Under the pieces are notes generated by a model, which saw only the letters and a list, made by a program, of their open reading frames with translations, ran no database searches and was not told the DNA's origin. Shown here piece after piece: positions 42,689 through 64,000 of a stretch of 64,000 nt of DNA; the stretch's first letter is position 1, and every line of letters begins with the position of its first letter. The position numbers and the translations under genes were made by a program. Source of the DNA: Mangrovibacterium diazotrophicum (lineage in GTDB: Bacteria; Bacteroidota; Bacteroidia; Bacteroidales; Prolixibacteraceae); assembly GCF_003610535.1 (NCBI RefSeq), contig NZ_RAPN01000001.1, forward strand, positions 62,001 to 126,000. Direction: 5' to 3'.

Positions 42689-43558
42689 ATGAGGCAGACC
42701 TGGCGCTTGGTTTCTCGCACGACTATGGTTCTGATAGTCGTGTTTACTTTCTTCTTTTTGCTATTGGAAGGCTATTCCTATTATCGTTTGGGAATTGAAG
42801 ATCGTTTTTACCACGCTCAGCATCAATTGTTGAAGCCAAGCGGTTTACTGGGGCATGGCTTGGGAATCATCGGCTCGTCTCTGATCGTGATTGGAGTATG
42901 CATGTACATGATTCGTAAGCGCGTACGTCGGTTTTCGCGCATCGGTGTACTGAAATACTGGCTTGAATTTCATATTTTCCTTTGCTCGTTGGGACCTGTT
43001 CTGGTCCTGTTTCACACGGCTTTTAAATTCGGCGGAATTGTTTCTGTTAGTTTTTGGTGTATGGTTGCAGTGGTCGTCAGTGGTATTATTGGCCGGTACA
43101 TCTACCTGCAAATTCCGCATACCATCGAGGGGCGCGAAATGAGTCTGGCAGAGTTGGAAATGAAGAAGGCTCATTTTAAAGTGTTGTTGCAGGAAAAGTA
43201 CCAACTCAATTCGCCGCTTGCCGATGAGATTTTGCAAGCCGTAAAGGCTCGGCCGAGCCGGCCGGGCGGGGAAAGTATTAGCCGATTTGTCGAAAAACTT
43301 TTGTTTCAACACAAATTACTTCAACGAGTCAGAATGCTTCTGAGAACGAACCATTTCGAACCCCAAACGCGTAAAGAACTATTGCGTTTAATTCGGTATG
43401 AAATCAGCCTGAATCGTAAAATTGACCGCCTCGTTACCATGCAAAACTTGTTTCGTTATTGGCATGTAGCGCATTTGCCTTTTGCATTGGTGATGCTGTT
43501 GATCATGCTGATTCATATTGGTGTTGCACTGGCTTTTGGTTACCGATGGATCTTTTGA
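42689..43558 (+). CDS. membrane cytochrome b-like protein (di-heme candidate)
   Basis: The 289-residue protein has five hydrophobic helices (about 12-28, 53-76, 92-112, 115-140 and 258-284) and one long soluble loop (141-257). Two helices carry His pairs spaced by 14 residues: His95/His109 and His262/His276, the pattern by which helix pairs hold two b-type hemes across a bilayer. His56 and His259 are additional candidates. It therefore probably passes electrons across the inner membrane, like the anchor subunits of quinol dehydrogenases. The next gene, an Fe-S/FAD protein, starts 1 nt beyond its stop, so they likely form one complex. No close family name is recognised. Confidence 0.75.
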   Translation: MRQTWRLVSRTTMVLIVVFTFFFLLLEGYSYYRLGIEDRFYHAQHQLLKPSGLLGHGLGIIGSSLIVIGVCMYMIRKRVRRFSRIGVLKYWLEFHIFLCSLGPVLVLFHTAFKFGGIVSVSFWCMVAVVVSGIIGRYIYLQIPHTIEGREMSLAELEMKKAHFKVLLQEKYQLNSPLADEILQAVKARPSRPGGESISRFVEKLLFQHKLLQRVRMLLRTNHFEPQTRKELLRLIRYEISLNRKIDRLVTMQNLFRYWHVAHLPFALVMLLIMLIHIGVALAFGYRWIF

Positions 43559-43559
43559 T

Positions 43560-44900
43560 ATGAGTGAAACGTTGATTGAAAATATTGTCATCTATGGTGT
43601 TGTCGTTCTTGTTTTTGGGCTGACGATGTGGTTCTACCTTCGCAAACTTCGAAATCAAAATCGAATGATTACCGAAAAGATTGTGCAGGCTAAATCTGAA
43701 GGACTTTATGAGCCGGTTTCGCTGCACCCGGTTGTCGATCCAAAATCCTGCATTCAAAGCGGCGCCTGCATTGTTGCATGTCCCGAAAAAGATATTTTAG
43801 GAATAGTGAATGGTCGTGCTACAACGATTAATGCGTCGCGCTGTATCGGGCATGGCGCTTGTTTTCATGCTTGTCCGACCCAGGCAATCACTTTATATAT
43901 TGGAACCGAAAAGCGTGGCGTAGACTTACCGCATGTCGATGAGAATTTTGAGACCAACGTGCCCGGCCTGTTTATCGCAGGCGAGATTGGAGGTATGGGC
44001 TTGATCCGCAATGCCGTTGAGCAGGGGCGTCAGGCAGTTGAGAATTTGGCAAAAGGATTGGATCGAAAGGTTGCGGCTGACTACGATTTGGTCATCATAG
44101 GTGCCGGGCCTGCTGGTATTTCGGCTTCACTGGCAGCTAAAAAACTCGGACTAAGTACACTCACTCTGGAACAAGATTTTCTGGGAGGCACAGTCTTTAG
44201 TTTCCCGCGTTCTAAAATCGTCATGACTTCTCCGATGGATCTCCCGTTGCATGGCAAAGTGCGCCTGTTTGAAACCAGCAAACAGGAATTACTCGATCTC
44301 TGGCAACAGGTTATTGAAAAGCATGAGATCCGTATTCGTGAGAACGTAAAAGTCGAATCGATTAGCCGGTTAAACGGACATTTTGAAATTTCGGTTTTAT
44401 CCGATGAAATCTACACCTCCCGCAGAGTTTTGTTGGCCATTGGTCGTCGCGGAACGCCGCGAAAATTGAATGTTCCGGGAGAAGAAAGTCCGAAAGTTGC
44501 TTACCGTTTGCTCGATCCGGAACGAATACGGGAACAGCAGATTTTAGTTGTTGGTGGAGGAGACTCAGCTATTGAGGCAGCGCTGCTGTTGGCGGATCAA
44601 AATGAAGTGGTATTGTCATACCGGGGTGCTGCTTTTAACCGGTTGAAACCTGCAAATAAGCAACGAATTGATCAGGCAAAGCAAGAAGGGAAAGTGACGA
44701 TTTTGTATCAATCGAATGTTGTTCGGATTGAGCCTCAGTCTGTATCAATTTTGCTTGATGGGGAAGAAAAACAAAGAGAGATTGAAAATGATCTCGTATA
44801 CATTTTCGCAGGCGGAGAGTTACCAACTCAATTTTTAGAGAAAGCAGGAATAAAGATTACGCGGAAATTTGGTGAGTCTGTGCTGAAGCATAAAAAATAG
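43560..44900 (+). CDS. membrane-anchored Fe-S/FAD oxidoreductase with permuted FAD motifs
   Basis: The ATG at 43560 gives 446 residues. An N-terminal helix (VVVLVFGLTMWFYL) is followed by two ferredoxin-type motifs: C64-x5-C70-x3-C74-P and C95-x5-C101-x3-C105-P. The middle Cys of each usual CxxCxxC is replaced, by Ser67 and by His98. Next comes TNVPGLFIAGEIGGMGLIR (about 132-150), the motif that normally ends thioredoxin-reductase-type proteins, and only then the FAD motif VIIGAGPAGISAS and the NAD(P) motif ILVVGGGDSAIEAAL. No redox CxxC is present. It probably links NAD(P)H to the cytochrome b next door; direction unknown. Confidence 0.82.
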   Translation: MSETLIENIVIYGVVVLVFGLTMWFYLRKLRNQNRMITEKIVQAKSEGLYEPVSLHPVVDPKSCIQSGACIVACPEKDILGIVNGRATTINASRCIGHGACFHACPTQAITLYIGTEKRGVDLPHVDENFETNVPGLFIAGEIGGMGLIRNAVEQGRQAVENLAKGLDRKVAADYDLVIIGAGPAGISASLAAKKLGLSTLTLEQDFLGGTVFSFPRSKIVMTSPMDLPLHGKVRLFETSKQELLDLWQQVIEKHEIRIRENVKVESISRLNGHFEISVLSDEIYTSRRVLLAIGRRGTPRKLNVPGEESPKVAYRLLDPERIREQQILVVGGGDSAIEAALLLADQNEVVLSYRGAAFNRLKPANKQRIDQAKQEGKVTILYQSNVVRIEPQSVSILLDGEEKQREIENDLVYIFAGGELPTQFLEKAGIKITRKFGESVLKHKK

Positions 44901-44946
44901 GAACTGTCGGTTCGCCAGTCGATTCATATAGTCGGAAATAAAACAA

Positions 44947-46530
44947 TTGAAAAAGCTAATCTACATACTGTTGTTGCTGATAACGCCTTTCGCGGTGTTT
45001 GCCCAAATCTCTCCGGGCGATTTATCGCAGGCTCACGAAAAGCTTGAAGGCTTAAGTAATTGCACGCAATGTCATGTGTTGGGCGAAAAGGTCACTAACC
45101 AGAAGTGTCTGGCTTGTCACGACGAAATTCAAAGCCTGCTTGCCAGTAGTGAAGGTTATCATGCTTCGGTTGAAGTGAAGGGAAAAGATTGCTTTGCCTG
45201 CCACAGCGAGCACCATGGTCGCAGTTTTCAGTTAATCCGCCTGGATCAAGATTCGTTTAATCATGACTTAACCGGTTACAAATTAGAGGGAAAACACGAG
45301 GCAGCAAAATGTGCAGATTGTCACCAAATGAAGAATATCAAAGCCCCCGCTCTGAAGAAAAAAGAGCGTACTTTCCTGGGCTTAGAGCAGCGTTGTTTTT
45401 CCTGCCACGAGGACTATCACCAAAAAACACTTTCGGCTGACTGTGCTTCCTGTCATGGATTCGATTCGTTTAAACCGACGGTGAAGTTTGATCATCAAAA
45501 GACAGCTTTCGCATTAAAAGGAAAACATGAGCAGGTTGCCTGCGAAAAGTGCCATGAGAGAACGGCGCAGAATGGCAAGCCTTTTCAACATTTTTCGGGT
45601 CTAAAGTTTGAGAGTTGCGCGAACTGCCATAAGGATGTGCATGAGAATAAATTCGGGCCGAATTGCAGCTCTTGCCATAACGAAAATTCGTTCCATCAAG
45701 TGGCGGGAATGACCAATTTCAATCATCAGAAAACCAATTTCCCGTTGGAAGGTAAACACCGGCAGGTTAGTTGCCGATCCTGTCATCAACAGTCATTAAC
45801 GGCTCCGGTGGCGCATGCGAAGTGCGCAGATTGTCATCGCGATTACCACCGCGGACAGTTTACCAACGAAACGAGTAAGCCGGATTGTTCGGTCTGCCAT
45901 GATGTAACCGGCTTCACCACTTCATCGTTCACCATAGAACAGCACAATCAACTGAAATTTAAACTGGAAGGGGCACATTTGGCCACACCTTGTTTCGCCT
46001 GTCATCAAAAAGGAATTCGGTGGGAGTTCCCACAAATTGGAGAGCGATGTGTGGACTGTCACGAGAATATTCATCGCCGCAAAATTGCTGAAGAATATAT
46101 GCCGCAAGAAAATTGTCAGCTGTGTCACAATGTAATAGAATGGAGAGATGTAACTTTTGATCATCAGAAAACGGGTTTTACATTGACCGGTAAACACACG
46201 ATAATCAATTGCCGTTCGTGTCATTTTAAGGAAGAAGGAGACATCGTTGAGCAGCATTTTTCGGGTTTGGGCAAGGACTGTGAAAACTGTCACCAAGATC
46301 CGCACAGAGAGCAATTTAAGGTAGATGGGAAAACGAATTGTGCCAAATGTCACCAGTCTTATGCCTGGAAACCGAGCCGTTTCGATCACGACCAAAGCCG
46401 CTTTCAGCTGGAAGGTCAGCACGCTCAAACAGCCTGTGTTAGATGTCATCCTTCGCTTGAAGATGAGGAGGGAACATTCACGAAATACAAACTAAAAGCA
46501 GATATTAAATGCGCAGATTGTCATTACTGA
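44947..46530 (+). CDS. 20-heme c-type cytochrome, exported
   Basis: TTG start; 527 residues with a signal peptide (KKLIYILLLLITPFAVFAQ) and no lipobox. I count 20 CXXCH heme-binding motifs, from CTQCH and CLACH near the N terminus to CADCH at the very end. Six copies of a module of the form FDHxxTxFxLxGxHxxxxCxxCH divide the protein into triheme-like units. The rest of each unit holds CxxCH-x-D-x-H. The protein should lie in the periplasm, possibly spanning it. The following cytochrome gene begins inside the last codons, so they are made together. No catalytic domain is seen, so electron storage or wiring is the likely role. Confidence 0.9.
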   Translation: MKKLIYILLLLITPFAVFAQISPGDLSQAHEKLEGLSNCTQCHVLGEKVTNQKCLACHDEIQSLLASSEGYHASVEVKGKDCFACHSEHHGRSFQLIRLDQDSFNHDLTGYKLEGKHEAAKCADCHQMKNIKAPALKKKERTFLGLEQRCFSCHEDYHQKTLSADCASCHGFDSFKPTVKFDHQKTAFALKGKHEQVACEKCHERTAQNGKPFQHFSGLKFESCANCHKDVHENKFGPNCSSCHNENSFHQVAGMTNFNHQKTNFPLEGKHRQVSCRSCHQQSLTAPVAHAKCADCHRDYHRGQFTNETSKPDCSVCHDVTGFTTSSFTIEQHNQLKFKLEGAHLATPCFACHQKGIRWEFPQIGERCVDCHENIHRRKIAEEYMPQENCQLCHNVIEWRDVTFDHQKTGFTLTGKHTIINCRSCHFKEEGDIVEQHFSGLGKDCENCHQDPHREQFKVDGKTNCAKCHQSYAWKPSRFDHDQSRFQLEGQHAQTACVRCHPSLEDEEGTFTKYKLKADIKCADCHY

Positions 46531-47747
46531 TTTTATTAGTGGGGATATTTCAGCTTTGCTTCTCTCAATCGCCTCATGGCAAGAACTTCCATGTAGATTG
46601 TGCAGCTTGTCATTCACCTGAAAGCTGGGAGCTGTTGCAGCTGAGTAAAACCTTCGACCACAATCAAACTTCGTTTAAGTTGGACGGAGCGCATCAAGCA
46701 GTTGATTGTAAGGCTTGCCACAAGAGTTTGGTTTTTACTGAAGCTGAGCGCGAATGTGTGGCCTGCCATTTGGATATGCACAACACTACCTTGGGAACGG
46801 ATTGCAAAAGGTGCCACAAGCCGCAAAACTGGATTGTGACCAATACGACTCAACTGCATCGCGAAGGTCGCTTTCCCTTGATGGGAGCACATCGGACGGC
46901 TGATTGTTTCCAATGTCACCAGTCGGCCAGCAATTTGCGGTTTGAACCGCTGAACATAGAGTGCGTGAGTTGTCACCGGTCGGATTATTTGGCGACGACA
47001 AGTCCGAATCATCAGGAAGCCGGTTATTCAACCAGTTGTGAGGATTGCCACGGTGCTCAAGCGGTTTCGTGGAATGCGGCAAACTTCGAGCACGACTTTT
47101 TCCCTTTGCGTGGCGGACATGCGATTAGCTGTTTTGAATGCCATACCAGCGGTACCTTCGGAAAATTGCCAACAGATTGTATCGCTTGTCACCAGGCGGA
47201 TTACAACTCAACAGCTGAACCGAATCACCTGCAAGTTGGATTTTCGACAAATTGTACCGAATGTCACCAACCGACTGACGGAAGTTGGGGATCTGCTAAT
47301 TTCAATCATGATTTCTTTCCATTAACCGGCGGACATGCCATCAGTTGCTCGGAATGCCACACCGGAGGCACAGGTACCAAGCCGTCGACCGACTGTTTGA
47401 CCTGTCACCAAAATGATTACAATTCGACTACTGATCCCAACCATCAGCAGGCCGGTTTTTCAACCGACTGCAGTTTGTGTCACTCGCCGGATTCGGACTG
47501 GGATGCGGCCGATTTCAAATCGCACGACAGCCAGTATTTCCCGATTTACTCGGGGCGGCATAATGGGGAATGGAGTTCTTGTTTGGATTGTCATTCAAAC
47601 ACATCGAGTTATGCGGATTTTACCTGCTTTACTTGTCATGTTCACAATCAAACTGAAACTGACGGTCATCACCAGGAAGTGGCAAACTACTCGTATCAAA
47701 GCTCGGCATGTTATTCTTGCCATCCGACCGGCAGAGCTGAAGATTAA
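46509..47747 (+). CDS. 16-heme c-type cytochrome, exported
   Basis: The 412-residue protein starts with a signal peptide (MRRLSLLILLVGIFQLCFS) and has 16 CXXCH motifs (first CAACH, last CYSCH). Five modules related to those of the preceding gene are visible, but here they have changed to forms such as FEHDFFPLRGGHAISCFECH, with two nearly identical copies in the middle. Between them lies the repeated CHQxDYNSTxxPNHxQxGFST unit. The ATG lies 22 nt before the end of the 20-heme gene, so translation is coupled. It might be the partner that reaches the outer membrane barrel encoded next. Confidence 0.9.
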   Translation: MRRLSLLILLVGIFQLCFSQSPHGKNFHVDCAACHSPESWELLQLSKTFDHNQTSFKLDGAHQAVDCKACHKSLVFTEAERECVACHLDMHNTTLGTDCKRCHKPQNWIVTNTTQLHREGRFPLMGAHRTADCFQCHQSASNLRFEPLNIECVSCHRSDYLATTSPNHQEAGYSTSCEDCHGAQAVSWNAANFEHDFFPLRGGHAISCFECHTSGTFGKLPTDCIACHQADYNSTAEPNHLQVGFSTNCTECHQPTDGSWGSANFNHDFFPLTGGHAISCSECHTGGTGTKPSTDCLTCHQNDYNSTTDPNHQQAGFSTDCSLCHSPDSDWDAADFKSHDSQYFPIYSGRHNGEWSSCLDCHSNTSSYADFTCFTCHVHNQTETDGHHQEVANYSYQSSACYSCHPTGRAED

Positions 47748-47769
47748 TTCATTCAATCGACAATAGAAA

Positions 47770-49410
47770 ATGACACCAGACATGCATAAACATCGGCAAT
47801 ATCGAAGCTATCAGATTCACGGCATTCTATTGGTGTTATTTCTTTGCATGTCGGTTTCCGGTCGGGCGCAAAAGGATTTCACAGGAAAGGTGACTTATGT
47901 GACCAGCCAGCATGTTTATGCGCGTTTCGACGGTGCGAATGATTTACAGGTGGGTGACACCATCTTTATTCAAACGGACGGCCAGATGAAACCTTTGATG
48001 GTGATTGAGTCAAAATCGAGTTATTCGGCCGTGGGTAAGCCATTCCCCGGAAATGTAGTGTCACTTGGTCAGGAAGTTGTTGGGCGTTCGGCGATAACAA
48101 TAAAGGCGGAGGAAAAAGTAGAATCCGAGAAGTCTGTTTCTCCGGATGAAGAGTTAGTCGCTGCCTCAGACAGTGTCGTTCAAACAAAAAAAGGAGGTGA
48201 GTTTAAGCAGAATATTCGTGGCCGAATTTCGCTTTCCTCTTATTCCTCGCTGTCAAATGCAACTTCATCTGATTCTCATCGGATGAGATTCAGTCTTTCC
48301 TTACAAGCGAATCATATCAATAACAGTCGTTTTTCTGCTGAAACGTACACCAACTTTAGCTTTTTAAGCTCTGATTGGGCGGCTGTTCAGGATAACCTTT
48401 TTAATGCACTGAAAATTTACAGTTTGGCGGTTCGTTATCAGGCAGGGGAACAGTCAGAAATTTGTTTGGGGCGGAAAACCAATCCCAATCTTTCGAATGT
48501 TGGCGCTATCGACGGACTTCAGTTCGAAACCGGTTCCGAACATTTCCGCGCGGGAGCTATTGCCGGTTTTCGCCCCGACTATTCAGACTATGGTTTCAAC
48601 GCAGATTTGTTGGAATACGGAGCTTACATCGCCCATCAATCCGAAAATGAAGAAGGAGCAGTGCGTAGCTCGCTTGCTTTTTTCAACCAAACCAACAATG
48701 GCAAAACCGACCGGCGCTTTCTGTACTTGCAGCACAGTAATTCGTTGGCAAGAAACCTGTTTTTGTTTCTGTCGAGCGAAGTTGATTTGTACCAGAATCA
48801 CGACAACATTTCTACCAATACGTTTCGGTTGACGAGTTTCTACATTTCGGCGCGCTACCGGTTTAATCAGCAGCTTTGGTTAGATGCTTCTTACGATAAC
48901 CGTAAAAATGTGATTTACTACGAGACATTTAAGAGCCTCGTTGATCAGCTAATGGAAGAAGCGACCCGGCAGGGTGTTCAGTTTCGCGTAAATTACCGTC
49001 CATTCCAGCTCATAACCATCGGATTCAATGCGAACTATCGGAAACGGGATTCCGATCCCAAATCATCCACTTCATTTTACAGCTTTTTATCCTTTAACCA
49101 AGTTCCGGGGATTGACGCAACTTTCACACTGTCAGCCAACGTATTGAAGACGGTTTATGTTGACGGTTCAGTTTTTGGACTACGGGTTTATAAAGATTTT
49201 CTGGATGATAAACTTTCATCTGCGGTGGGGTATCGTTATGTTGACTACCGGTTTCCTGGATCCGAAAGCAGCCTTCTTCAGCATGAAGCAGAAATCGATT
49301 TGACTTGGCAAATTACCCGCAAACTCGCGCTTTCCCTGAATTATGAGGCTACTTTCGAGAAAAGGGATCATTACAACCGGATATATATCAATTTGACAAA
49401 ACGGTTTTGA
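47770..49410 (+). CDS. predicted outer-membrane beta-barrel with periplasmic N-terminal domain
   Basis: The 546-residue protein has a signal segment (GILLVLFLCMSVSGRAQ). A small SH3-like domain (KDFTGKVTYVTSQHVYARFDG...LQVGDTIFI, about 35-110) and a Lys/Glu-rich linker follow. From about 150 on, the sequence alternates aromatic and polar strands (RISLSSYSSLS, FSLSLQANHI, AETYTNFSFLS ...) and ends in YNRIYINLTKRF, a terminal strand closing with Phe as in barrel proteins. The barrel would have about 20 or more strands. It follows the cytochromes by 22 nt. A cytochrome-hosting porin is a plausible role, but no sequence similarity to MtrB is evident to me. Confidence 0.75.
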   Translation: MTPDMHKHRQYRSYQIHGILLVLFLCMSVSGRAQKDFTGKVTYVTSQHVYARFDGANDLQVGDTIFIQTDGQMKPLMVIESKSSYSAVGKPFPGNVVSLGQEVVGRSAITIKAEEKVESEKSVSPDEELVAASDSVVQTKKGGEFKQNIRGRISLSSYSSLSNATSSDSHRMRFSLSLQANHINNSRFSAETYTNFSFLSSDWAAVQDNLFNALKIYSLAVRYQAGEQSEICLGRKTNPNLSNVGAIDGLQFETGSEHFRAGAIAGFRPDYSDYGFNADLLEYGAYIAHQSENEEGAVRSSLAFFNQTNNGKTDRRFLYLQHSNSLARNLFLFLSSEVDLYQNHDNISTNTFRLTSFYISARYRFNQQLWLDASYDNRKNVIYYETFKSLVDQLMEEATRQGVQFRVNYRPFQLITIGFNANYRKRDSDPKSSTSFYSFLSFNQVPGIDATFTLSANVLKTVYVDGSVFGLRVYKDFLDDKLSSAVGYRYVDYRFPGSESSLLQHEAEIDLTWQITRKLALSLNYEATFEKRDHYNRIYINLTKRF

Positions 49411-49501
49411 ATTCAGAATTCTCAAATCTTTGATTAACTTTCCATGGTTATTTTGTTAGTTAACTGATGAAATCTAAATCAAGAATAAAAACTTTAAAGT
49501 A

Positions 49502-50224
49502 ATGAACATGAGATTTTTTGCCGTGATGATGATGGGAGTTGTGCTGATGACTTCCTGTGTGAAAAAGAAAAAAGAAGCTGTTCAACCCTTGGATACCAGT
49601 GCCGGTAGTGAGATGGTGCACGCGGTTGCGGTTAAAAAGGCGTTGCAGGCCAATGCTTATACTTACCTGTTGGTTAGCGAAGGCGACCAGGATTACTGGA
49701 TTGCTGTGGACAAGATGGAGCCTGAAGTTGGCGGAACTTATTTCTTCGCCGATGCGATGGAAATGAAAGAATTTAAAAGTAACGACCTCGATACCATTTT
49801 TGCCAGCGTATTTTTCGTTCAGAAGTTGAGTACCACAAAGGATGCCAGCACGATGAGTATGAAAAATCCGCACGGAACTGCGCCTGGACGCCAGTCTGTT
49901 GATCAGGATGAATCGATTTCGGTTGCGCCGGCAGAAGGAGGAATCACCATTGCTTCGTTATTCGAAAACAAGGCCGATTATTCGGGAAAAGACGTGATTG
50001 TCAGCGGTAAAGTGGTGAAAGTGAACAACGGTATCATGGGCCGCAACTGGGTGCACATCCAGGATGGTACCAACGCAGATGGATCTTATGATCTGACGTT
50101 GACTACCGACGCCGAAGTGGCTGTTGGCGACGTGGTGACCATGCAGGGAACGGTTGCACTGGATAAAGATTTTGGTGCTGGTTATTTCTACGATGTGATT
50201 GTGGAAAGTGCCACCGTGAAATAG
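49502..50224 (+). CDS. OB-fold lipoprotein, NrfJ-like
   Basis: The 240-residue protein has a lipoprotein signal (MRFFAVMMMGVVLMTSCVKK). The first domain, AYTYLLVSEGDQDYWIAVD and DAMEMKEFKSNDLDTIFASVFFVQ, is an OB-like unit, followed by a linker MSMKNPHG. The second OB unit is DVIVSGKVVKVNNGIMGRNWVHIQDGT...GDVVTMQGTV. This two-part pattern recalls NrfJ-type lipoproteins found with multiheme cytochrome genes; the comparison is from motif memory. OB folds here may bind a small ligand or another protein rather than nucleic acid. It closes the cytochrome cluster 91 bp after the barrel gene and ends in a terminator. Confidence 0.75.
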   Translation: MNMRFFAVMMMGVVLMTSCVKKKKEAVQPLDTSAGSEMVHAVAVKKALQANAYTYLLVSEGDQDYWIAVDKMEPEVGGTYFFADAMEMKEFKSNDLDTIFASVFFVQKLSTTKDASTMSMKNPHGTAPGRQSVDQDESISVAPAEGGITIASLFENKADYSGKDVIVSGKVVKVNNGIMGRNWVHIQDGTNADGSYDLTLTTDAEVAVGDVVTMQGTVALDKDFGAGYFYDVIVESATVK

Positions 50225-50244: not shown

Positions 50245-50272
50245 TTGAAGGAGCAGCGATGCTCCTTTTTTT
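50245..50272 (+). terminator. Rho-independent terminator of the cytochrome cluster
   Basis: Arms AAGGAGCA and TGCTCCTT with a GCGA tetraloop and a T run. It abuts the convergent queA stop codon. Confidence 0.85.
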
Positions 50273-57002: not shown

Positions 57003-57725
57003 ATGAATATTGATACAAGAACCAGTGTGGGAGACATCGTAAAAGCTAATTTTAAAACAGCTCAAATTTTTGAAAAGAATAATATTGATTTTTGCTGTGG
57101 TGGGGGAATTAGTCTTGATGAAGCCTGTGAAAAGAGTGGAATAAATATTGAACAATTAATACCGGAATTGACTGCTACAATCCAGCTAAATGACCCTGAT
57201 TCAAAGTACATCGACGAGCTGGAACTCAATGAACTTTGCGACTACATTGAAAAAAGACATCATACTTATGTAAGTGAGACCATTCCATTTCTTCAACAAA
57301 AATTACAAAAACTTTGTGATGTGCATGGAGAAAATCATTCTGAGTTACACGAAGTAAAAGCATTGTTTGATGGTGCAGCAGAGAATCTTAGTGTACACAT
57401 GAAGAAAGAAGAATTAATTTTATTTCCTTATATAAGAAAAATGGTAAAGTCAAAAAAGGAGGGTAAAACAGCAAAAGATGAATATGGTGATGCAGTCGAA
57501 ACTATTGATACCATGCATGAAGAACATCAAACAGAAGGTGAGCGTTTTGAGAAAATATCAAAATTGACTTCTTCATATACATGCCCCCCTGATGGATGTG
57601 GTACATACCAAGTTACTTATCAGACACTAAAGGAATTTGAAAACGACTTACATCGTCATATTCATTTAGAAAACAATATTCTGTTTAAGAAAGCTTTACT
57701 TTTGGAAAGTGAATTACTAAAATAA
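57003..57725 (+). CDS. ric: iron-sulfur cluster repair di-iron protein (Ric/ScdA/YtfE family)
   Basis: The 240-residue protein has the N-terminal ScdA domain with NNIDFCCGGG (Cys31, Cys32). A hemerythrin-like di-iron domain follows, with His in KRHHTYV, HGENHSELHEV, LSVHMKKEELILFPYI, MHEEHQTEGE and DLHRHIHLENNILF. The family repairs Fe-S clusters damaged by nitric oxide or oxidants, and can help remove NO. It begins a + strand operon with an Rrf2 regulator 6 nt downstream and a hemerythrin gene next, divergent from norB. Confidence 0.94.
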   Translation: MNIDTRTSVGDIVKANFKTAQIFEKNNIDFCCGGGISLDEACEKSGINIEQLIPELTATIQLNDPDSKYIDELELNELCDYIEKRHHTYVSETIPFLQQKLQKLCDVHGENHSELHEVKALFDGAAENLSVHMKKEELILFPYIRKMVKSKKEGKTAKDEYGDAVETIDTMHEEHQTEGERFEKISKLTSSYTCPPDGCGTYQVTYQTLKEFENDLHRHIHLENNILFKKALLLESELLK

Positions 57726-57731
57726 ATAAAC

Positions 57732-58172
57732 ATGCTATCTAAAAGTACAGAATATGCTATAAGAGCGTTAGTTTTTGTTCAGTTAAAAAATTGGGAACAA
57801 AAGAGACCTGGTGTTGGTGAAATTGCAAAAGAAATTGAAGCTCCGGAAGCTTATACAGCAAAAATTCTCCAAACTCTTACGAAGAATAAACTGATGGATT
57901 CGATGAAAGGGCGTGGTGGAGGTTTCTTTTTCAATGACAATCAATCGAACTTAACGCTTTATGATGTAATTCATGTAGTTGAAGGAGATGCTTGTTTTCA
58001 CAAATGTGGCTTTGGACTTAAGCAATGCAATAATGATAATCCTTGTCCTTTGCATGAGCAATACAAAATTGTTCGAGATGGATTTTTTGAAATAGTGAAA
58101 ACAGAAACAATACAATCCTTATCAGAAAAGATTAAGCAGGGAGAAGCGGTTTTAAATAGATTAAAAAAATAG
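57732..58172 (+). CDS. Rrf2-family transcriptional regulator (NsrR-like candidate)
   Basis: The 146-residue protein has an N-terminal winged helix: SKSTEYAIRALVFV, GEIAKEIEAPEAYTAKILQTLTKNKLM and the wing SMKGRGGGFFF. The cluster-binding loop holds Cys88, Cys92, Cys99 and Cys105, close to the spacing of the Fe-S-binding NsrR/IscR group. By family knowledge such proteins sense NO when the cluster is nitrosylated. It sits between ric and the hemerythrin gene and opposite norB, so the palindrome at 56925-56974 is its likely operator; this pairing is inference. Confidence 0.9.
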   Translation: MLSKSTEYAIRALVFVQLKNWEQKRPGVGEIAKEIEAPEAYTAKILQTLTKNKLMDSMKGRGGGFFFNDNQSNLTLYDVIHVVEGDACFHKCGFGLKQCNNDNPCPLHEQYKIVRDGFFEIVKTETIQSLSEKIKQGEAVLNRLKK

Positions 58173-58175
58173 AAA

Positions 58176-58685
58176 ATGAAAAATATAACTCAAATATTAT
58201 CAGACGAACACCAAATAATTTTAAAAGTTATTGATGCTGTAAATTCAGAATGTGACGAACTAGAAAAAGGTAAAACTTTAGACATTAGCTTTTTTCAGAA
58301 AACAATCAACTTTATAAAAAACTATGCCGACAAGTTCCATCATGCAAAAGAAGAAGACATTCTTTTTAAAGCCATGTTGGAAAATGTTGAACATCTACAT
58401 TGTAATCCTATTCCGGTGATGTTACATGAGCATGATGAAGGTCGAACATTTGTGTACGGTATGGAACAAGGTGTTTCTGAAAATAATACCGATAAAATAA
58501 TTCAAAATGCACGAGGATACGGAATGCTTTTGCGAGACCATATTTATAAAGAAGATAATGTTCTTTATCCTATGGCAGAGGAAGCGTTATCTGATGAGCA
58601 GAAAGAGTTGGTGAATAAAAAATACACCGAAGTAGAATTACTTCTCAACAAAGAAATGAATGTGAATGAATTAATTTTTGTGTAA
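58176..58685 (+). CDS. hemerythrin-domain protein
   Basis: The 169-residue protein is a four-helix hemerythrin-like domain with the iron ligands visible as EHQIILKVIDAV, KFHHAKEEDILF, HEHDEGRTFVYGM and LRDHIYKEDNVLYPMAE. A di-iron site of this kind can bind O2 or NO. It starts 3 nt after the Rrf2 gene and therefore belongs to the same operon, as a probable NO-binding or NO-buffering partner of Ric. Confidence 0.88.
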   Translation: MKNITQILSDEHQIILKVIDAVNSECDELEKGKTLDISFFQKTINFIKNYADKFHHAKEEDILFKAMLENVEHLHCNPIPVMLHEHDEGRTFVYGMEQGVSENNTDKIIQNARGYGMLLRDHIYKEDNVLYPMAEEALSDEQKELVNKKYTEVELLLNKEMNVNELIFV

Positions 58686-58704
58686 TTTTTTGAGATATTA
58701 TTGA

Positions 58705-59169
58705 ATGAGTTGGTATTTAAAGTTCAAAGCTTTCTTATTTCCATTTTGGGCTGGACTAATAAGTGCTATAAGTTTTCTTGAAGCTTGGATAAAGTTCAGG
58801 GCAGATGGAGTTACTAGAGAAATAGGATTAAGCATAGGTAGCCTTGTGTTTACTGTTTTAAATAGGATAGAATTAACCATTTTATTAATAATATGGTTAC
58901 TATTATTTCTACAAAACAAAAGACATGTATTTAAAATTGTTTCTGAAAATATTCTAATTTGCTTAATTAGTTTGGTTCTGTTATTACAAACTATTTGGTT
59001 ATTACCTAACCTAGTTCATAGAGCGGAAGAAATTATTGCAGGGAATCAGCCTTCGAGTTCCTCTGTCCATATGGTTTTTATAATTTTTGAGGCTATAAAG
59101 CTTATTTTGCTTGTTATACTATCTTTTAAAGCTAATCGAAATAATGAAGAATTTACACCGAAGATATAG
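58705..59169 (+). CDS. four-helix membrane protein of unknown function
   Basis: The 154-residue protein has four predicted membrane helices: AFLFPFWAGLISAISFLEAW, LTILLIIWLLLFLQ, NILICLISLVLLLQTIWLL and MVFIIFEAIKLILLVILSF. A short polar loop with ADGVTREIGLSIG lies after the first helix. I do not recognise the family. It follows the hemerythrin gene by 19 nt and overlaps the HPP gene, so it is part of the same transcript; no metal or heme ligands stand out apart from two loop histidines. Confidence 0.7.
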   Translation: MSWYLKFKAFLFPFWAGLISAISFLEAWIKFRADGVTREIGLSIGSLVFTVLNRIELTILLIIWLLLFLQNKRHVFKIVSENILICLISLVLLLQTIWLLPNLVHRAEEIIAGNQPSSSSVHMVFIIFEAIKLILLVILSFKANRNNEEFTPKI

Positions 59170-59812
59170 AGTTGTCAAGTATATAATATATCGTCAAACC
59201 TTAGTGAATCCACAAGATCATCTATGGACGTTTATTGGTGCTTTCTTAGGTATTGGAATAATTGGTTTTACGCATGAAGTATTTTCATCATTTAGTGTAA
59301 GTGATAAAGTCTTTTTAATAGGGTCGTTTGGAGCGTCTGCAGTATTAATTTATGGAGCAACAAATAGTCCATTGGCTCAACCCCGAAATTTAATTGGTGG
59401 ACATTTAATAAGTGCCTTTATTGGAGTAAGTGTATATAAACTTTTATCCAGCTTTGATATTTTGTGGCTAAATGCTGCCTTAGCTGTTTCCATTTCAATA
59501 ATTGCAATGCAATGTACAAAAACCTTGCATCCGCCTGGAGGAGCAACTGCATTAATCGCAAATCTGGGAACCCCTAAGGTCTTAAGTTTGGGGTATTTTT
59601 ATATTCTTTATCCTGTAAGTACTGGTGTTGGTATTTTACTTTTGATTGCACTTATAACAAATAATTTACCGAGGGACCGGTCATATCCAAACAAGCAATT
59701 ATTCAGAATTAATATTAAAACTTTAGCTAATGAAAACAATTGGAATATTAGGCGGATTAGGACCAGAAGCAACCGTGGATTATTACAAAGAAATAATAAA
59801 AGGCTTCGATAA
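59144..59812 (+). CDS. HPP-family membrane protein
   Basis: The ATG at 59144 gives 222 residues; the frame extends 11 codons upstream. The protein has HPP-family marks: PQDHLWTFIGAFLGIGIIGF, FGASAVLIYGATNSPLAQPRNLIGGHLISAFIGV and CTKTLHPPGGATALIA, with the HPP tripeptide that names the family. Five or so helices span the membrane. HPP proteins have been linked to nitrite transport in plants and cyanobacteria. The last 28 codons run through the start of the racemase gene in another frame and look unrelated to the family, so the natural stop may have been lost. Confidence 0.85.
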   Translation: MKNLHRRYRVVKYIIYRQTLVNPQDHLWTFIGAFLGIGIIGFTHEVFSSFSVSDKVFLIGSFGASAVLIYGATNSPLAQPRNLIGGHLISAFIGVSVYKLLSSFDILWLNAALAVSISIIAMQCTKTLHPPGGATALIANLGTPKVLSLGYFYILYPVSTGVGILLLIALITNNLPRDRSYPNKQLFRINIKTLANENNWNIRRIRTRSNRGLLQRNNKRLR

Positions 59813-60437
59813 AATTAACGGAGATGGTAGTTTGAATTATCCTGAGATTGTAATTTTTAGCGTTAATATGGCAAAGTTTATTGGATTACTTGAAGAAGGG
59901 AAATATACTAATGCCGCTTCGTATATCGCTTCATGTGTGGATAATATTAGAAATGCCGGGGCTGACTTTGCTGTAATAAGTGCCAATACTCCACATTTAC
60001 TGTTTAATGAAATTCAAGCGCAAGTTAACATACCATTAATTAGCATTGTTGATGTATGTGCTAAACAAGCCAGGAAGATTGAAGTGAAAAAATGTGCATT
60101 ATTAGGTACAAAATTCACAATGCAAAACGACTTTTATCATAAAGTATTCAATCTGCACAATATTGAAATAGTAGTTCCTGATGAAAAGCAAATAGAGATT
60201 ATAAACCAAAGACTCTTTAACGAACTAGAATTAGGAATATTTAAAGAAGAAACAAGGCAGGAAATACTTGAAATAGTCAACAAATTGAAGGAACAACATG
60301 AAGTTGATTCAGTAATTCTAGGCTGTACCGAATTTCCATTAATGTTTACCGAAGACAATTATCTGGAATTACCCTTTTTAAATACAACCAAGATACATGT
60401 AGATGCAATAATCAAAACCTGTTCAAATGGCAATTGA
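59730..60437 (+). CDS. aspartate/glutamate racemase-family protein
   Basis: The 235-residue protein begins with KTIGILGGLGPEATVDYYKEIIKG, the start of the aspartate racemase family. The two catalytic positions are in ISANTPHLLFNEI and VILGCTEFPLMF: the second is the usual Cys, but the first, commonly Cys or Thr, is Ala (SANTPH). It may thus be a one-base epimerase or a non-racemising relative. It overlaps HPP by 83 nt at its start and the ferredoxin gene by 11 nt at its end. Its link with nitrogen-oxide genes is unexplained. Confidence 0.85.
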   Translation: MKTIGILGGLGPEATVDYYKEIIKGFDKINGDGSLNYPEIVIFSVNMAKFIGLLEEGKYTNAASYIASCVDNIRNAGADFAVISANTPHLLFNEIQAQVNIPLISIVDVCAKQARKIEVKKCALLGTKFTMQNDFYHKVFNLHNIEIVVPDEKQIEIINQRLFNELELGIFKEETRQEILEIVNKLKEQHEVDSVILGCTEFPLMFTEDNYLELPFLNTTKIHVDAIIKTCSNGN

Positions 60438-60630
60438 TAAGATATGGCGTGACGATGATATCAACACATGTGTAGCGTGTAAAATATGTCAATCTTTTGC
60501 TCCACGAGTCTTTAAAGTATTCGATAAGATGATTGTGATGCCTGGTGTTGATTACGATAAATATGAAAATGAAATACGTGAGGCTGTTGAAAGTTGCCCC
60601 ACAGGAATAATTAAAATTGAATATAAATGA
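60427..60630 (+). CDS. single-cluster [4Fe-4S] ferredoxin
   Basis: The 67-residue protein has CVACKIC (C-x2-C-x2-C) near residue 15-21 and CPTG at about 57, enough to bind one [4Fe-4S] cluster as in Fer4-type small ferredoxins. It could give electrons to an as yet unknown enzyme. It starts within the racemase gene and its stop overlaps the next start by 4 nt, so it is firmly in the operon. Confidence 0.85.
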   Translation: MAIDKIWRDDDINTCVACKICQSFAPRVFKVFDKMIVMPGVDYDKYENEIREAVESCPTGIIKIEYK

Positions 60631-60890
60631 AAGTAGCTGTTTGGGATACATATGTGCAACGTACCGATGGGAAAAAAATGCACTTTGATATTATTGTACC
60701 GGAGAATGTAAAGGATTCTAATGTGATATTTCACTATGGACATGAATACCTTAAATACAAAGATGTTAAATCGAAAAAACTTACCACAAAAGAATGTGAG
60801 TTTTGCCATATTGAGTATGCCACGCAAGAAGTTATCTCAGATATAGAATCTAAGGGGTATCATATTGTTGAAATGGAAAATTGTATTTGA
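60627..60890 (+). CDS. DUF2024-family small protein
   Basis: The 87-residue protein matches DUF2024: MKVAVWDTYVQRTDGKKMHFDIIVPE at the start, then KECEFCHIEYA and GYHIVEMENC near the end. A small metal site formed by CEFCH and nearby residues is possible. The family is of unknown function. It overlaps the ferredoxin gene by 4 nt and closes the + strand operon, convergent with ccsA. Confidence 0.85.
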   Translation: MKVAVWDTYVQRTDGKKMHFDIIVPENVKDSNVIFHYGHEYLKYKDVKSKKLTTKECEFCHIEYATQEVISDIESKGYHIVEMENCI

Positions 60891-60905
60891 AATAAAGGCA
60901 TCTGC

Positions 60906-61691
60906 TTAACTAGAATAAACATGCACACTATTTTGTGCTGCCGGAAGGTAGTTAATACCAAACCAACAAATAAGCAGAACAACAAAAGCAAACATTAAAA
61001 TCAGAAAAACGCTTTTGTGGCTTAAATTACTTTTTATCCTGAAATGGATATGAATAAGATAAACAGCCCATGTGAGAAATGCCCATGTTTCTTTGGGATC
61101 CCATGTCCAATAATGCCCCCATGCTTCTTTTGCCCATAAAGCTCCGAATATTAGTCCTAACGTAAGAAAGCCAAAGCCTATATAAACGATGTTATCTGTT
61201 TTAAGTACAAAATCCTCTTTCAGATTATCTTTTCTAATTGCATATAATCCAAGCAATCCGTAAAGTGCAGATAAACCTAATAAGGCGTAAGCAATCATAT
61301 ACACAATTACATGAGGTACAAACCAAATGCTTTGCAATGCTGGCATGAGTGTTTTACTGTGAATTTCAGGATTTAGGTAGTTCAATAATAAAAATAGAAT
61401 AGCCATACCAAGTGAATACATAAGCATTAACTTGATTTTCCATCGCTTAAATATTACATAGCCTGAAATTGCCAGGAAGAATGAATACCAAAGTCTTGTC
61501 TCTCCAAGAGTTCTTAATGGTGGGCGTTGGAGATTTGTCCAAAGTAAAACGATAAATACAGCCAAGCTTAAAGTACCAAGGATTGCAGTCAAATTGGCGA
61601 TTTTGCCCAACTTGTCTGAAAGAGAAGTGCCAATGGCCAGAATCCATGTTGCCAACGAAATAATTGCGAATATTTCAAAATTATGCCACAT
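60906..61691 (-). CDS. ccsA: cytochrome c assembly protein CcsA
   Basis: The 261-residue membrane protein carries the heme-handling WWD-type motif WAKEAWGHYWTWDPKETWAFLTW and about eight helices, as in CcsA/ResC. Conserved His occur in the flanking helices (PHVIVYMIAYALLG and HIHFRI). With CcsB it forms the system II heme lyase that attaches heme to CXXCH apocytochromes outside the inner membrane. Its start overlaps the stop of ccsB. The nearby nrfA and the multiheme cytochromes upstream would all need such a system. Confidence 0.93.
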   Translation of the reverse strand: MWHNFEIFAIISLATWILAIGTSLSDKLGKIANLTAILGTLSLAVFIVLLWTNLQRPPLRTLGETRLWYSFFLAISGYVIFKRWKIKLMLMYSLGMAILFLLLNYLNPEIHSKTLMPALQSIWFVPHVIVYMIAYALLGLSALYGLLGLYAIRKDNLKEDFVLKTDNIVYIGFGFLTLGLIFGALWAKEAWGHYWTWDPKETWAFLTWAVYLIHIHFRIKSNLSHKSVFLILMFAFVVLLICWFGINYLPAAQNSVHVYSS

Positions 61692-62911
61692 TACACATCC
61701 TCCTTCCTTTTACCAGTCCATATCAAATAGAAAGTTCCTGCAATGAGTAAGAAGAATCCCAAATATACCGATGGCAGCCAAGGGTCTTTAACCAGTTCCA
61801 AAATGCTTTTCGTTGACCAACGTCCCATTGTTTCATCATAACTTGTCTGATAAATCTTCCATCCGGCAATCTTGATTGGTTTATTTACCTCAATGATGGT
61901 ATCATACACAGCTCCGGCTTTTTCATAAACCGTAATTTCAGACAGGAAACGTTTTGCTTCGGGTTTGGTCATAAGCATTATTGTGCTTGAATCAATCTGA
62001 TACATTTCCTGACGATACAAAATGCTTGGACTTGAAATCCAAATAGTATCAATCGCTTCATTATTGGATTTTAGAATCTTTAAGGATTGAGTTGCCCCCA
62101 TACCCAGAACAGGCTCAAACCTATTCATAACAGGAGCTGAACTCATTAAAAGTTTGTCAATCTTTAAATCAAAATCCTTATAGTTGAATTGTAAGCCCTC
62201 GTGTGGGTCTATCATTAAAGGTTTGTTGTTTTGGTTGATTATCTCTCCGGTACTGTTTTCCACAAAAGCAATTTTTGCAGGGTATTCTTCAATGGAGAAG
62301 TCTCGTAGCTTTATAGCAAAATTTAATTCTTCTGTTCTGTTTCCATTTTCAATTCCATACCAAGTAGTTTTGCCTTCTTCAAGATACATATTCAGTTTTT
62401 GTATGTCTCCTGCACCTAAATGAGCCGATGCAATACACAGCCATAAACCGAAATGGTTTAGAAAGAAACCGATATTCCTCTTGGAAAGCTTTGTGATGCG
62501 TTTAATGGTCACTGTTCCAAGTATGATTAAAAAGAAAACTACTCCAATTGTATAAGTCCAGCTCGATGTAACATCATACAGAAAGAATAAGGAATCTGAT
62601 GGTTTTTGCGGAATTAAGGCTAGCAATAACGAAGGTACTACGAATGAAGTAATCCCGGCAATTGATGCCGGAACACTATAAAACCATTTGAAAACCGCTC
62701 TTTTTTTAGATAACAGATATAGCAATAACGATAAATTTGCTAATAGTGCTATTGAAACAAAGTTGGCTGGCCAAGATATTTTAGGCGCAGTAGTACCTGT
62801 TATAAATTCAATTCCTAATGATGCCAAAAATAAGGCAAAAGCTATTAAGAAGCTTTCGGGATACTTCCAGGGAAGCACCCATAAGCTCTTTTTTTCTTTA
62901 GTATTTTGCAA
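61691..62911 (-). CDS. ccsB: cytochrome c assembly protein CcsB/ResB
   Basis: A TTG start is the only option because the frame is closed by a stop just upstream; the protein has 406 residues. Four hydrophobic helices and a large periplasmic domain (about 190-370) match ResB/CcsB. Family-typical segments include IGFFLNHFGLWLCIASAHLGAGD and VNKPIKIAGWKIYQTSYDETMG. It works with CcsA in system II cytochrome c maturation. It lies 11 nt beyond the nrfA stop, so nrfA-ccsB-ccsA are co-transcribed. Confidence 0.92.
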   Translation of the reverse strand: MQNTKEKKSLWVLPWKYPESFLIAFALFLASLGIEFITGTTAPKISWPANFVSIALLANLSLLLYLLSKKRAVFKWFYSVPASIAGITSFVVPSLLLALIPQKPSDSLFFLYDVTSSWTYTIGVVFFLIILGTVTIKRITKLSKRNIGFFLNHFGLWLCIASAHLGAGDIQKLNMYLEEGKTTWYGIENGNRTEELNFAIKLRDFSIEEYPAKIAFVENSTGEIINQNNKPLMIDPHEGLQFNYKDFDLKIDKLLMSSAPVMNRFEPVLGMGATQSLKILKSNNEAIDTIWISSPSILYRQEMYQIDSSTIMLMTKPEAKRFLSEITVYEKAGAVYDTIIEVNKPIKIAGWKIYQTSYDETMGRWSTKSILELVKDPWLPSVYLGFFLLIAGTFYLIWTGKRKEDV

Positions 62912-62922
62912 GGTAATTTATT

Positions 62923-64000
62923 CTAATATTTCGATTCTCTTTGACTGGCTTCTTCAAGCCATTGTGGAACTACAGTTCCTAAAAATTCTTCTTTGTCAGA
63001 ATTTAGTTTAGCCATATCTAAACCAATATATTTCTGGGCTTTCGCTTTGGTCGAAATATCAGGCATTTCAACTTCTTTATTGTGTCCAAGGTGTGCCAAT
63101 AACCGAGTAAGCTTAATTCTTGCTTCTTGTGCAATATTGATACCCGATGAAACAATACGACCTGTTTCAACAGGTGAGTGGAATGATGCGCCATGAGCGG
63201 CTACGGAATAATCCCAACGCCATTGAGCATGTCGAATATCCATAAGTATTGCTTGCATTTGTTCTTCATTCGCACCTTTATCCCATGCTGCTTTAGCTTC
63301 TACGTGTGCTTTAACCAATAAATCTTCTAGAATATTTACATTTTCTTTAATCTTATCCTGACGAGAATATACATCGGCAATGAGTTTATGAGCCTCTTCA
63401 CGGTGACAAACCTGACATGAATTGGCGACATTATTAAGAGGACTTTGAATGTGATGGTCTGTAAATTTCACACCACCTTGGCTTTTATATGGCATGTGAC
63501 AATCAGCACAAGATACACCACGTTCTGCATGCACTCCTGTTAAGTAAGTTTCATAACCTGGGTGTTGGGCTTTTAACATAGGGGCTTTACTCAGTTTATG
63601 TGTCCAATCAGCAAATTCCATATCATCGTAATAAACCTCCATTTGTTCTACAGACATTCCATTATCCCAGGGGAAGGTTAAATATGGAACACCTTCAATT
63701 TTCTTTTTATTGAAATAATATTCCACATGGCATTGAGCACAAACCAGGCTTCTCATTTCCTGATGTGTAGCTTTTGTAATATCCTTTCCTTGTCGCTCAA
63801 ACGCTTCAATTAATGCAGGGCGAGAAATGCGTAGTTGCATAGTATTTACATCGTGGCAATCGGCACAACCAATTGGATTCACAATTTCAGCTCCCCACTT
63901 TTCCCATGAACCTTTATAGAACTCTGCAATTCCAACTTCATTCATCATTCTTGGAACATCGGGGCTTTTACAAGTCCAACAAGTATTGGGCATAGGGCTT
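62923..64000 (-). CDS. nrfA: ammonia-forming cytochrome c nitrite reductase NrfA (N terminus outside window)
   Basis: The gene is cut by the right edge; about 358 codons are present. The active-site heme motif CWTCK (with lysine in place of His) is followed by four CXXCH motifs (CADCH, CAQCH, CADCH, CQVCH). The KAQHPGYE segment and the VHAERGVSCADCHMPY region are characteristic of NrfA. It reduces nitrite to ammonium with six electrons in the periplasm. It is first in an operon with ccsB and ccsA. An nrfH anchor gene, if present, would lie upstream, out of view. Confidence 0.95.
   Translation of the reverse strand, partial: SPMPNTCWTCKSPDVPRMMNEVGIAEFYKGSWEKWGAEIVNPIGCADCHDVNTMQLRISRPALIEAFERQGKDITKATHQEMRSLVCAQCHVEYYFNKKKIEGVPYLTFPWDNGMSVEQMEVYYDDMEFADWTHKLSKAPMLKAQHPGYETYLTGVHAERGVSCADCHMPYKSQGGVKFTDHHIQSPLNNVANSCQVCHREEAHKLIADVYSRQDKIKENVNILEDLLVKAHVEAKAAWDKGANEEQMQAILMDIRHAQWRWDYSVAAHGASFHSPVETGRIVSSGINIAQEARIKLTRLLAHLGHNKEVEMPDISTKAKAQKYIGLDMAKLNSDKEEFLGTVVPQWLEEASQRESKY

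Follow-up and report, generated by a model that had tools for sequence, protein, structure and literature searches.

The window analysed here is a stretch of 64,000 nucleotides from Mangrovibacterium diazotrophicum (NZ_RAPN01000001.1, assembly GCF_003610535.1, positions 62,001-126,000 of the forward strand). It carries a cluster of six genes encoding a cytochrome b (A), an iron-sulfur (Fe-S)/flavin adenine dinucleotide (FAD) protein (B), a 20-heme (C) and a 16-heme (D) c-type cytochrome, a β-barrel (E) and a lipoprotein (F). The cluster is real and conserved, and is probably an electron conduit that spans the cell envelope. All six open reading frames lie on the plus strand, with distances of 1 bp (A-B), 46 bp (B-C), -22 bp (C-D, an overlap), 22 bp (D-E) and 91 bp (E-F). 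A preliminary description of this DNA had listed six genes on one strand with gaps of -22 to 91 bp, and these coordinates and distances proved accurate. The product types it predicted (a b-type cytochrome, an Fe-S/FAD protein, a barrel and an OB-like lipoprotein) were likewise recovered by Pfam, motif searches and structural models. For B, the mechanical list of reading frames gives a TTG start at 43518, and the ATG at 43560 is the better fit. The C/D overlap is 22 bp both in the window (46509-46530) and in Emticicia (L153:15975-15996), which suggests conserved translational coupling. The host genome holds a single copy of A and of the cluster, and its only C-type proteins are C and D themselves.

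Conservation was surveyed in 99 loci with at least 8.5 kb of DNA downstream of A. B was present in 97 of them, C and D in 96 each, and E in 92. Two gene orders predominate, A-B-C-D-E (76 loci) and A-C-D-E-B (14 loci), which means that B, even where its position has changed, is still part of the set. The preliminary description had left it to be seen whether gene order is kept beyond this genome; in these loci it is kept far beyond it. Moreover, A, B, C and E give pairwise distances that correlate with r of 0.88-0.94, while the highest value in 500 permutations did not exceed 0.23. Strong matches to A (E < 1e-43) numbered 40 in 395 Bacteroidota genomes, the host included, and most of them lie outside the host's own class. 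Within the host's own family A was found in 62 of 140 genomes and in 11 of 23 genera, and its distribution there is therefore patchy. Relatives of A are encoded by 516 candidates among public genome contigs; the record titles of the best 80 name Prolixibacteraceae, Saprospiraceae, Bacteroidales, Marinilabiliales and other Bacteroidota, with two titles giving no phylum. On plasmid pEMTOL02 of Emticicia oligotrophica (L153), a ResB-CcsA-type maturation fusion and A-B-C-D-E-F follow one another consecutively, and this complete cluster on a plasmid indicates that the genes can be transferred together. Genes for YceI, a Rieske protein and two barrels lie near it. A search of PLSDB plasmids with C returned Emticicia only. 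In eight loci from several lineages (L035, L036, L040, L045, L046, L049, L051 and L053), a gene for a membrane-anchored TPR-like protein of about 200 amino acids (aa) stands between A and B. It is not found in the window, and its product is possibly an assembly factor of the conduit.

Gene A (42689-43558) encodes a protein of 289 aa, predicted from its AlphaFold2 (AF2) model, motifs and histidine conservation to be an inner-membrane di-heme b cytochrome with five transmembrane helices (residues 3-32, 53-78, 86-111, 117-141 and 225-286). Two WX3HX13H heme-ligand motifs were found, W91-x3-H95-x13-H109 on helix 3 (42959-43015) and W258-x3-H262-x13-H276 on helix 5 (43460-43516). The four histidines are invariant in alignments of 34 and 58 homologues, and an SGxxG motif (S131-G135) lies on helix 4. 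By the positive-inside rule, the N-terminus and the loop of about 110 residues between helices 4 and 5 would be cytoplasmic, with one histidine pair near each face of the membrane. No Pfam family matched A above threshold, and PF01794 (Ferric_reduct) matched none of 34 A members.

Gene B (43560-44900, 446 aa) encodes an N-terminal transmembrane helix, two 4Fe-4S-type sites (43749-43877) and a pyridine-nucleotide-disulphide-type FAD/NAD(P) fold, as identified by Pfam and NCBIfam. The match to Pyr_redox_3 reaches 5e-44, and a profile search of the Protein Data Bank (PDB) gave YpdA (7a7b, 1e-48) and ferredoxin-NADP reductase (3ab1) as the closest solved structures. The motifs GGGDSAxE and SYR..F.R.K are kept in 101 of 110 B homologues; the latter presumably occupies the place of the NADPH motif of thioredoxin reductase. 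B of the window shares the FAD/NAD(P) fold of the thioredoxin reductase/YpdA superfamily but lacks a redox-active CxxC disulfide, its only cysteines being the six of the Fe-S sites. In site 1 the second cysteine is replaced by Ser/Thr in 95 of the 110 homologues, and in site 2 the second cysteine is replaced by His in 105. These replacements would be unusual for 2x[4Fe-4S] ferredoxin domains and may tune the potentials of the clusters. The positive flank behind the transmembrane helix places the soluble part of B in the cytoplasm, at the level of prediction.

Evidence on the partner of A also came from more distant relatives. The PLSDB search with A detected a different three-gene module on plasmids of Qipengyuania, Methylophaga, Glaciecola and Acetobacter (L154-L157; E 2e-8 to 5e-4). 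These alpha- and gammaproteobacterial proteins retain both HX13H pairs and SGxxG. The gene 5' of each encodes a reductase with FAD_binding_6, NAD_binding_1 and Fer2 domains, Pfam families other than those of B, and the gene 3' encodes a cytochrome with seven CXXCH motifs in the two cases counted. Copper-resistance genes or those of a NiFe hydrogenase lie close to this conserved module, which has the look of a transmembrane electron-transfer unit not yet characterised. Two unrelated flavoproteins thus stand beside an A-type cytochrome b, which means that an NAD/FAD/Fe-S partner recurs in the same slot. Because of this recurrence, and because B accompanies A in nearly every surveyed locus under two gene orders, a cytoplasmic flavo-Fe-S donor looks integral to the system. 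The same evidence bears on a quinone-linked conduit, in which A would exchange electrons with menaquinone and B would play a secondary part, for instance in redox sensing or in balancing ferredoxin against NADPH. A quinone-active cytochrome b was proposed for the inner-membrane protein of PCC3 clusters by He et al. (2017) (PMC5566968), and some A members have weak matches to Ni_hydr_CYTB and DUF4405. Against these points stand the constancy of B and the unrelated reductase beside distant A relatives, and a quinone link is considered unlikely.

The two multiheme cytochromes both carry signal peptides. C (44947-46530, 527 aa) contains exactly 20 CXXCH motifs, or 26.4 aa per heme, and D (46509-47747, 412 aa) exactly 16, or 25.8 aa per heme, as the preliminary description had counted. 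With 45 and 35 histidines in total, C and D have more than enough histidines outside the motifs for bis-His ligation. Even with the Cys/His-rich composition of C, fewer than one CXXCH would be expected by chance (an estimate from counts). The spacing of the motifs has a period of three, with a lag-3 autocorrelation of 0.70 in C and 0.86 in D and negative values at lags 1 and 2. This periodicity, together with conservation, rules out that C and D are chance CXXCH-rich reading frames. In D of the window the spacing follows a 16/25/31 pattern, and one triheme repeat unit of about 72 aa (hemes 8-10) lies at 47130-47345. D proteins in general start with a fixed N-terminal cap (spacings 36, 16, 16, 34, 19, 25 in most), continue with repeats of about 72 aa (15-16, 25, 31-35) and end in a similar C-terminal cap.

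Comparison of complete reading frames revealed that C and D differ in how far their length is fixed. Among 97 complete C frames, 76 have 20 heme motifs and 21 have 23, with 26 found rarely among homologues; lower counts in the survey were fragments or start-site artefacts. Complete D frames range from 9 to 64 motifs at a median of 25.9 aa per heme, and the count equals 1 modulo 3 in 97 of 117, although these counts are not independent since the loci are related. Within one genus, near-complete genomes encode D with 13, 28, 40, 46 or 52 hemes while C remains at 20. In nine pairs of loci at least 90% identical over A+B+C+E, D differs in five; L174 and L181, for example, are 90.9% identical yet have 13 and 52 hemes in D. 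The four pairs with equal D include L075/L182, which are 100% identical and probably the same assembly. Units within one D gene are up to 98.9% identical in DNA, consistent with recent tandem duplication. An assembly artefact was ruled out as the source of the length differences, as the 28- and 40-heme forms lie on contigs of 3.9 and 3.3 Mb and the 13-heme form on one of 1.7 Mb.

Since a bridge across a fixed gap should keep its length and a free end need not, C would be the element that spans the periplasm and enters the barrel, and D an open-ended wire, probably at the cell surface. The preliminary description had placed all 36 c-hemes in the periplasm; this was an assumption and is probably wrong, because D, with its 9-64 hemes, is better placed outside and C is near-constant at 20 or 23. 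Its suggestion that the 16-heme protein threads the barrel is probably wrong as well, C being the likelier candidate for that position. The wide range of D in close relatives suggests loose constraint, and this could also fit an electron buffer or a detoxifying surface reductase, whose hemes would mainly store charge or reduce nearby oxidants or metals rather than sustain respiration. Large PCC3 cytochromes have been proposed to act as capacitors (PMC10734462). However, the donor module and the barrel are conserved along with the cytochromes, suggesting continuous flow, and storage alone would need neither; such a role is therefore judged improbable.

E (47770-49410, with an alternative start at 47785) is predicted to be an outer-membrane β-barrel. 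An AF2 model built on 45 sequences (mean predicted local distance difference test score 81, predicted template modelling score 0.65) has a small N-terminal β domain, a low-confidence linker and 22 strands, as counted from the element list, with no plug. Its structural matches are generic barrels: barrels of TonB-dependent receptors (Z up to 18.9, 328 residues aligned, root-mean-square deviation (rmsd) 5.0), Occ porins and ushers. MtrB (6r2q_B) ranked 22nd in Foldseek, one barrel among many. MtrB_PioB matched none of 45 E members, and a profile search of PDB sequences also returned no MtrB, so that the absence of MtrB-like sequence noted in the preliminary description holds for Pfam, NCBIfam and PDB profiles at their cut-offs. 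Because substrate porins and TonB-dependent receptor barrels are among these matches, E might be an ordinary solute porin, with the cytochromes forming a separate periplasmic redox system that shares the operon. This explanation is very unlikely, as E co-evolves with A, B and C (r 0.91-0.94) and adjoins cytochrome genes in nearly every locus, and an open plug-less barrel of 22 strands would presumably leak unless filled. The conduit first suggested in the preliminary description is supported by an order conserved across the phylum, co-evolving proteins, a large barrel without a plug and the lack of MtrB-like sequence. The last gene, F (49502-50224), encodes a lipoprotein of 240 aa with GW-like and OB-like regions. 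It has a GW-like match, and Cys19 is near-invariant in the alignment of F homologues. F was found downstream of A on the same strand in 26 of the 99 loci and appears to be an optional accessory.

This kind of conduit was already known. He et al. (2017) (PMC5566968) described PCC3 clusters in Proteobacteria, with repeats noted, as sets of four genes with a barrel, an extracellular cytochrome (up to 85 hemes, median 34) and a periplasmic cytochrome (median 21 hemes). The same paper describes an inner-membrane protein of about 300 aa with five helices, SGXXG on helix 4 and WX3HX13H on helices 3 and 5. In Gallionellaceae, PCC3 clusters have 21, 24 or 27 periplasmic and 10-35 extracellular hemes and yield long linear models (PMC10734462). 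PCC3 is regarded as putative and its function as experimentally uncharacterised (PMC12442390). A has every feature of the inner-membrane protein (289 aa, five transmembrane helices, SGxxG and both WX3HX13H motifs). C has 20 hemes compared with about 21 for the periplasmic cytochrome, D has a large and variable heme number at about 26 aa per heme (the locations of C and D being predicted), and a large barrel is adjacent, with all genes together. In the structural features tested the cluster therefore matches PCC3, a likeness established against published descriptions; no proteobacterial PCC3 cluster occurred in the collections searched. The match holds apart from B: the four-gene set described by He et al. 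has no flavoprotein, although they do not name this absence as defining. Other differences are that the present cluster belongs to Bacteroidota and often includes lipoprotein F, whereas PCC3 was reported in Proteobacteria, and that strict triheme steps of the outer cytochrome are not described for PCC3 in the accessible text of PMC5566968.

Other known systems are less similar. PCC4 has an inner-membrane protein with the motifs of A and, in subgroup II, an adjacent Fe-S protein gene; however, it has three periplasmic cytochromes and no extracellular one, and an FAD/NAD(P) domain is not reported in the accessible part of He et al. (2017). A Bacteroidetes anode cluster of seven genes (PMC8258643) was rejected as a counterpart, since six multiheme cytochromes and a barrel make a different composition. 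MtrCAB, MtoAB and PioAB also combine a barrel with multiheme cytochromes that cross the outer membrane. MtrA is a decaheme protein and MtrB a 26-strand barrel, while E has no MtrB_PioB match, C and D carry 20 and 16 hemes, and the decaheme MtrA/DmsE-type model TIGR03508 gave 37 bits against a cut-off of 192. The Geobacter OmbB-OmaB-OmcB and ExtABCD conduits likewise pair a porin with periplasmic and surface cytochromes, but no family searched matched over its curated cut-off, and E is only sub-threshold similar to the GSU2204 family (NF041027, 17.8 bits against 350). The predicted inner-membrane module resembles the proteobacterial modules above and the NOX/ferric reductase (FRD) proteins, in which a pyridine-nucleotide flavoprotein in the cytoplasm feeds a transmembrane cytochrome with two b-hemes held by two HX13H pairs on two helices. 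Here, B is a separate polypeptide of thioredoxin-reductase type with 4Fe-4S sites, and the electrons would go on into a multiheme wire. No published description of the six-gene cluster in Bacteroidota was found, although the supplements of MHCscan (PMC11475568), beyond its accessible text, may include members.

Taken together, the reading favoured with moderate confidence is a PCC3-type conduit that crosses both membranes and has its own NAD(P)H entry in the cytoplasm. As distant A relatives adjoin an unrelated NAD/FAD/2Fe-2S reductase, the likely path is NAD(P)H to FAD, Fe-S, heme b, C, E and D. B, anchored in the inner membrane, would oxidise NAD(P)H at its FAD in the cytoplasm and hand electrons via its two Fe-S clusters to A. 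A would then move them over the inner membrane via two b-hemes, one per face, as NOX-type reductases do. C would receive them at the periplasmic side, bridge the periplasm and enter the plug-less barrel E, and D would extend the chain outside the cell as a single-polypeptide wire in which the number of triheme units changes quickly. F would be an optional lipoprotein. A mineral, humic substances, an electrode, a partner cell or oxygen are candidates for the final acceptor. More tentative, though a serious possibility, is the wider proposal of a quinone-independent, NAD(P)H-driven exporter across Bacteroidota whose single-polypeptide wire, of up to 64 hemes, is adjusted in reach within short evolutionary times as whole triheme units are gained and lost.

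Outward flow is more likely than inward. Electron transfer from NAD(P)H to outside acceptors runs downhill in both redox and membrane potential, which favours export, and uptake to NAD(P)+ is uphill. Uptake would mean that electrons from Fe(II), Fe0, an electrode or a partner cell flow inward and reduce cytoplasmic NAD(P)+. Reaching NAD(P)+ against the membrane potential is uphill from most such donors on general bioenergetic grounds. Iron oxidisers do occur among PCC3 hosts (PMC5566968, PMC10734462), and iron-corroding strains of Prolixibacter, a member of Bacteroidetes, are reported (PMC8368055). However, Fe(II) induced neither PCC3 cluster of Sideroxydans ES-1 (PMC8788666), and uptake is held to be quite unlikely. 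Several points weigh against the NAD(P)H-driven conduit itself. The ES-1 PCC3 genes were lower on Fe(II) (PMC8788666), and He et al. proposed the quinone link for the PCC3 inner-membrane protein noted above. The electron source of B could be ferredoxin instead. In the fold search with A the top rows were unrelated helical proteins, and STEAP1 (Z 7.2, rmsd 7.4, 162 residues aligned) and Dcytb (Z 6.8, rmsd 3.7, 132 aligned) were listed at levels not above background. Neither a lipobox nor a known C-terminal secretion signal was seen by eye in the D sequences inspected, which leaves the route of D to the outside unexplained, and no biochemistry was found for any member of the cluster.

Sediments, groundwater and wastewater are rich in Bacteroidota, yet these bacteria are seldom counted as electroactive, and homology tools based on Mtr and Geobacter proteins would miss the cluster. 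Flavoprotein B, lipoprotein F and the strict triheme steps set it apart from PCC3 as described. If the proposed path is true, the usual picture, in which the quinone pool feeds extracellular electron transfer, would gain a cytoplasmic NAD(P)H entry. Of most value are this NAD(P)H-type module and the speed with which D changes length in three-heme steps. The series of D with 13, 28, 40, 46 and 52 hemes against a C of 20 is a natural experiment on wire length and electron transfer.

At the borders of the cluster, no Bacteroidetes promoter pattern was found upstream of A, and the frequency of this pattern in the window is not above chance. A terminator-like hairpin (50247-50268, plus strand) closes the cluster, although such sites are about as numerous in the region as chance would give. 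Nitrite-ammonification genes (CcsA, ResB, NrfA) lie about 11-13 kb downstream, from which it follows that the host probably respires anaerobically by another route too. They belong to a nitrite/nitric oxide cluster (window 57003-63993) that also encodes a ScdA-type hemerythrin, a second hemerythrin and a TM_HPP transporter, and a NapC/NirT-type protein is encoded just past the window end (G000:C1:126537-126992). A second locus of the genome (G000:C2:361916-366847) encodes a protein of ResB/CcsA size, a NapC/NirT-type match and a cytochrome c554 match.

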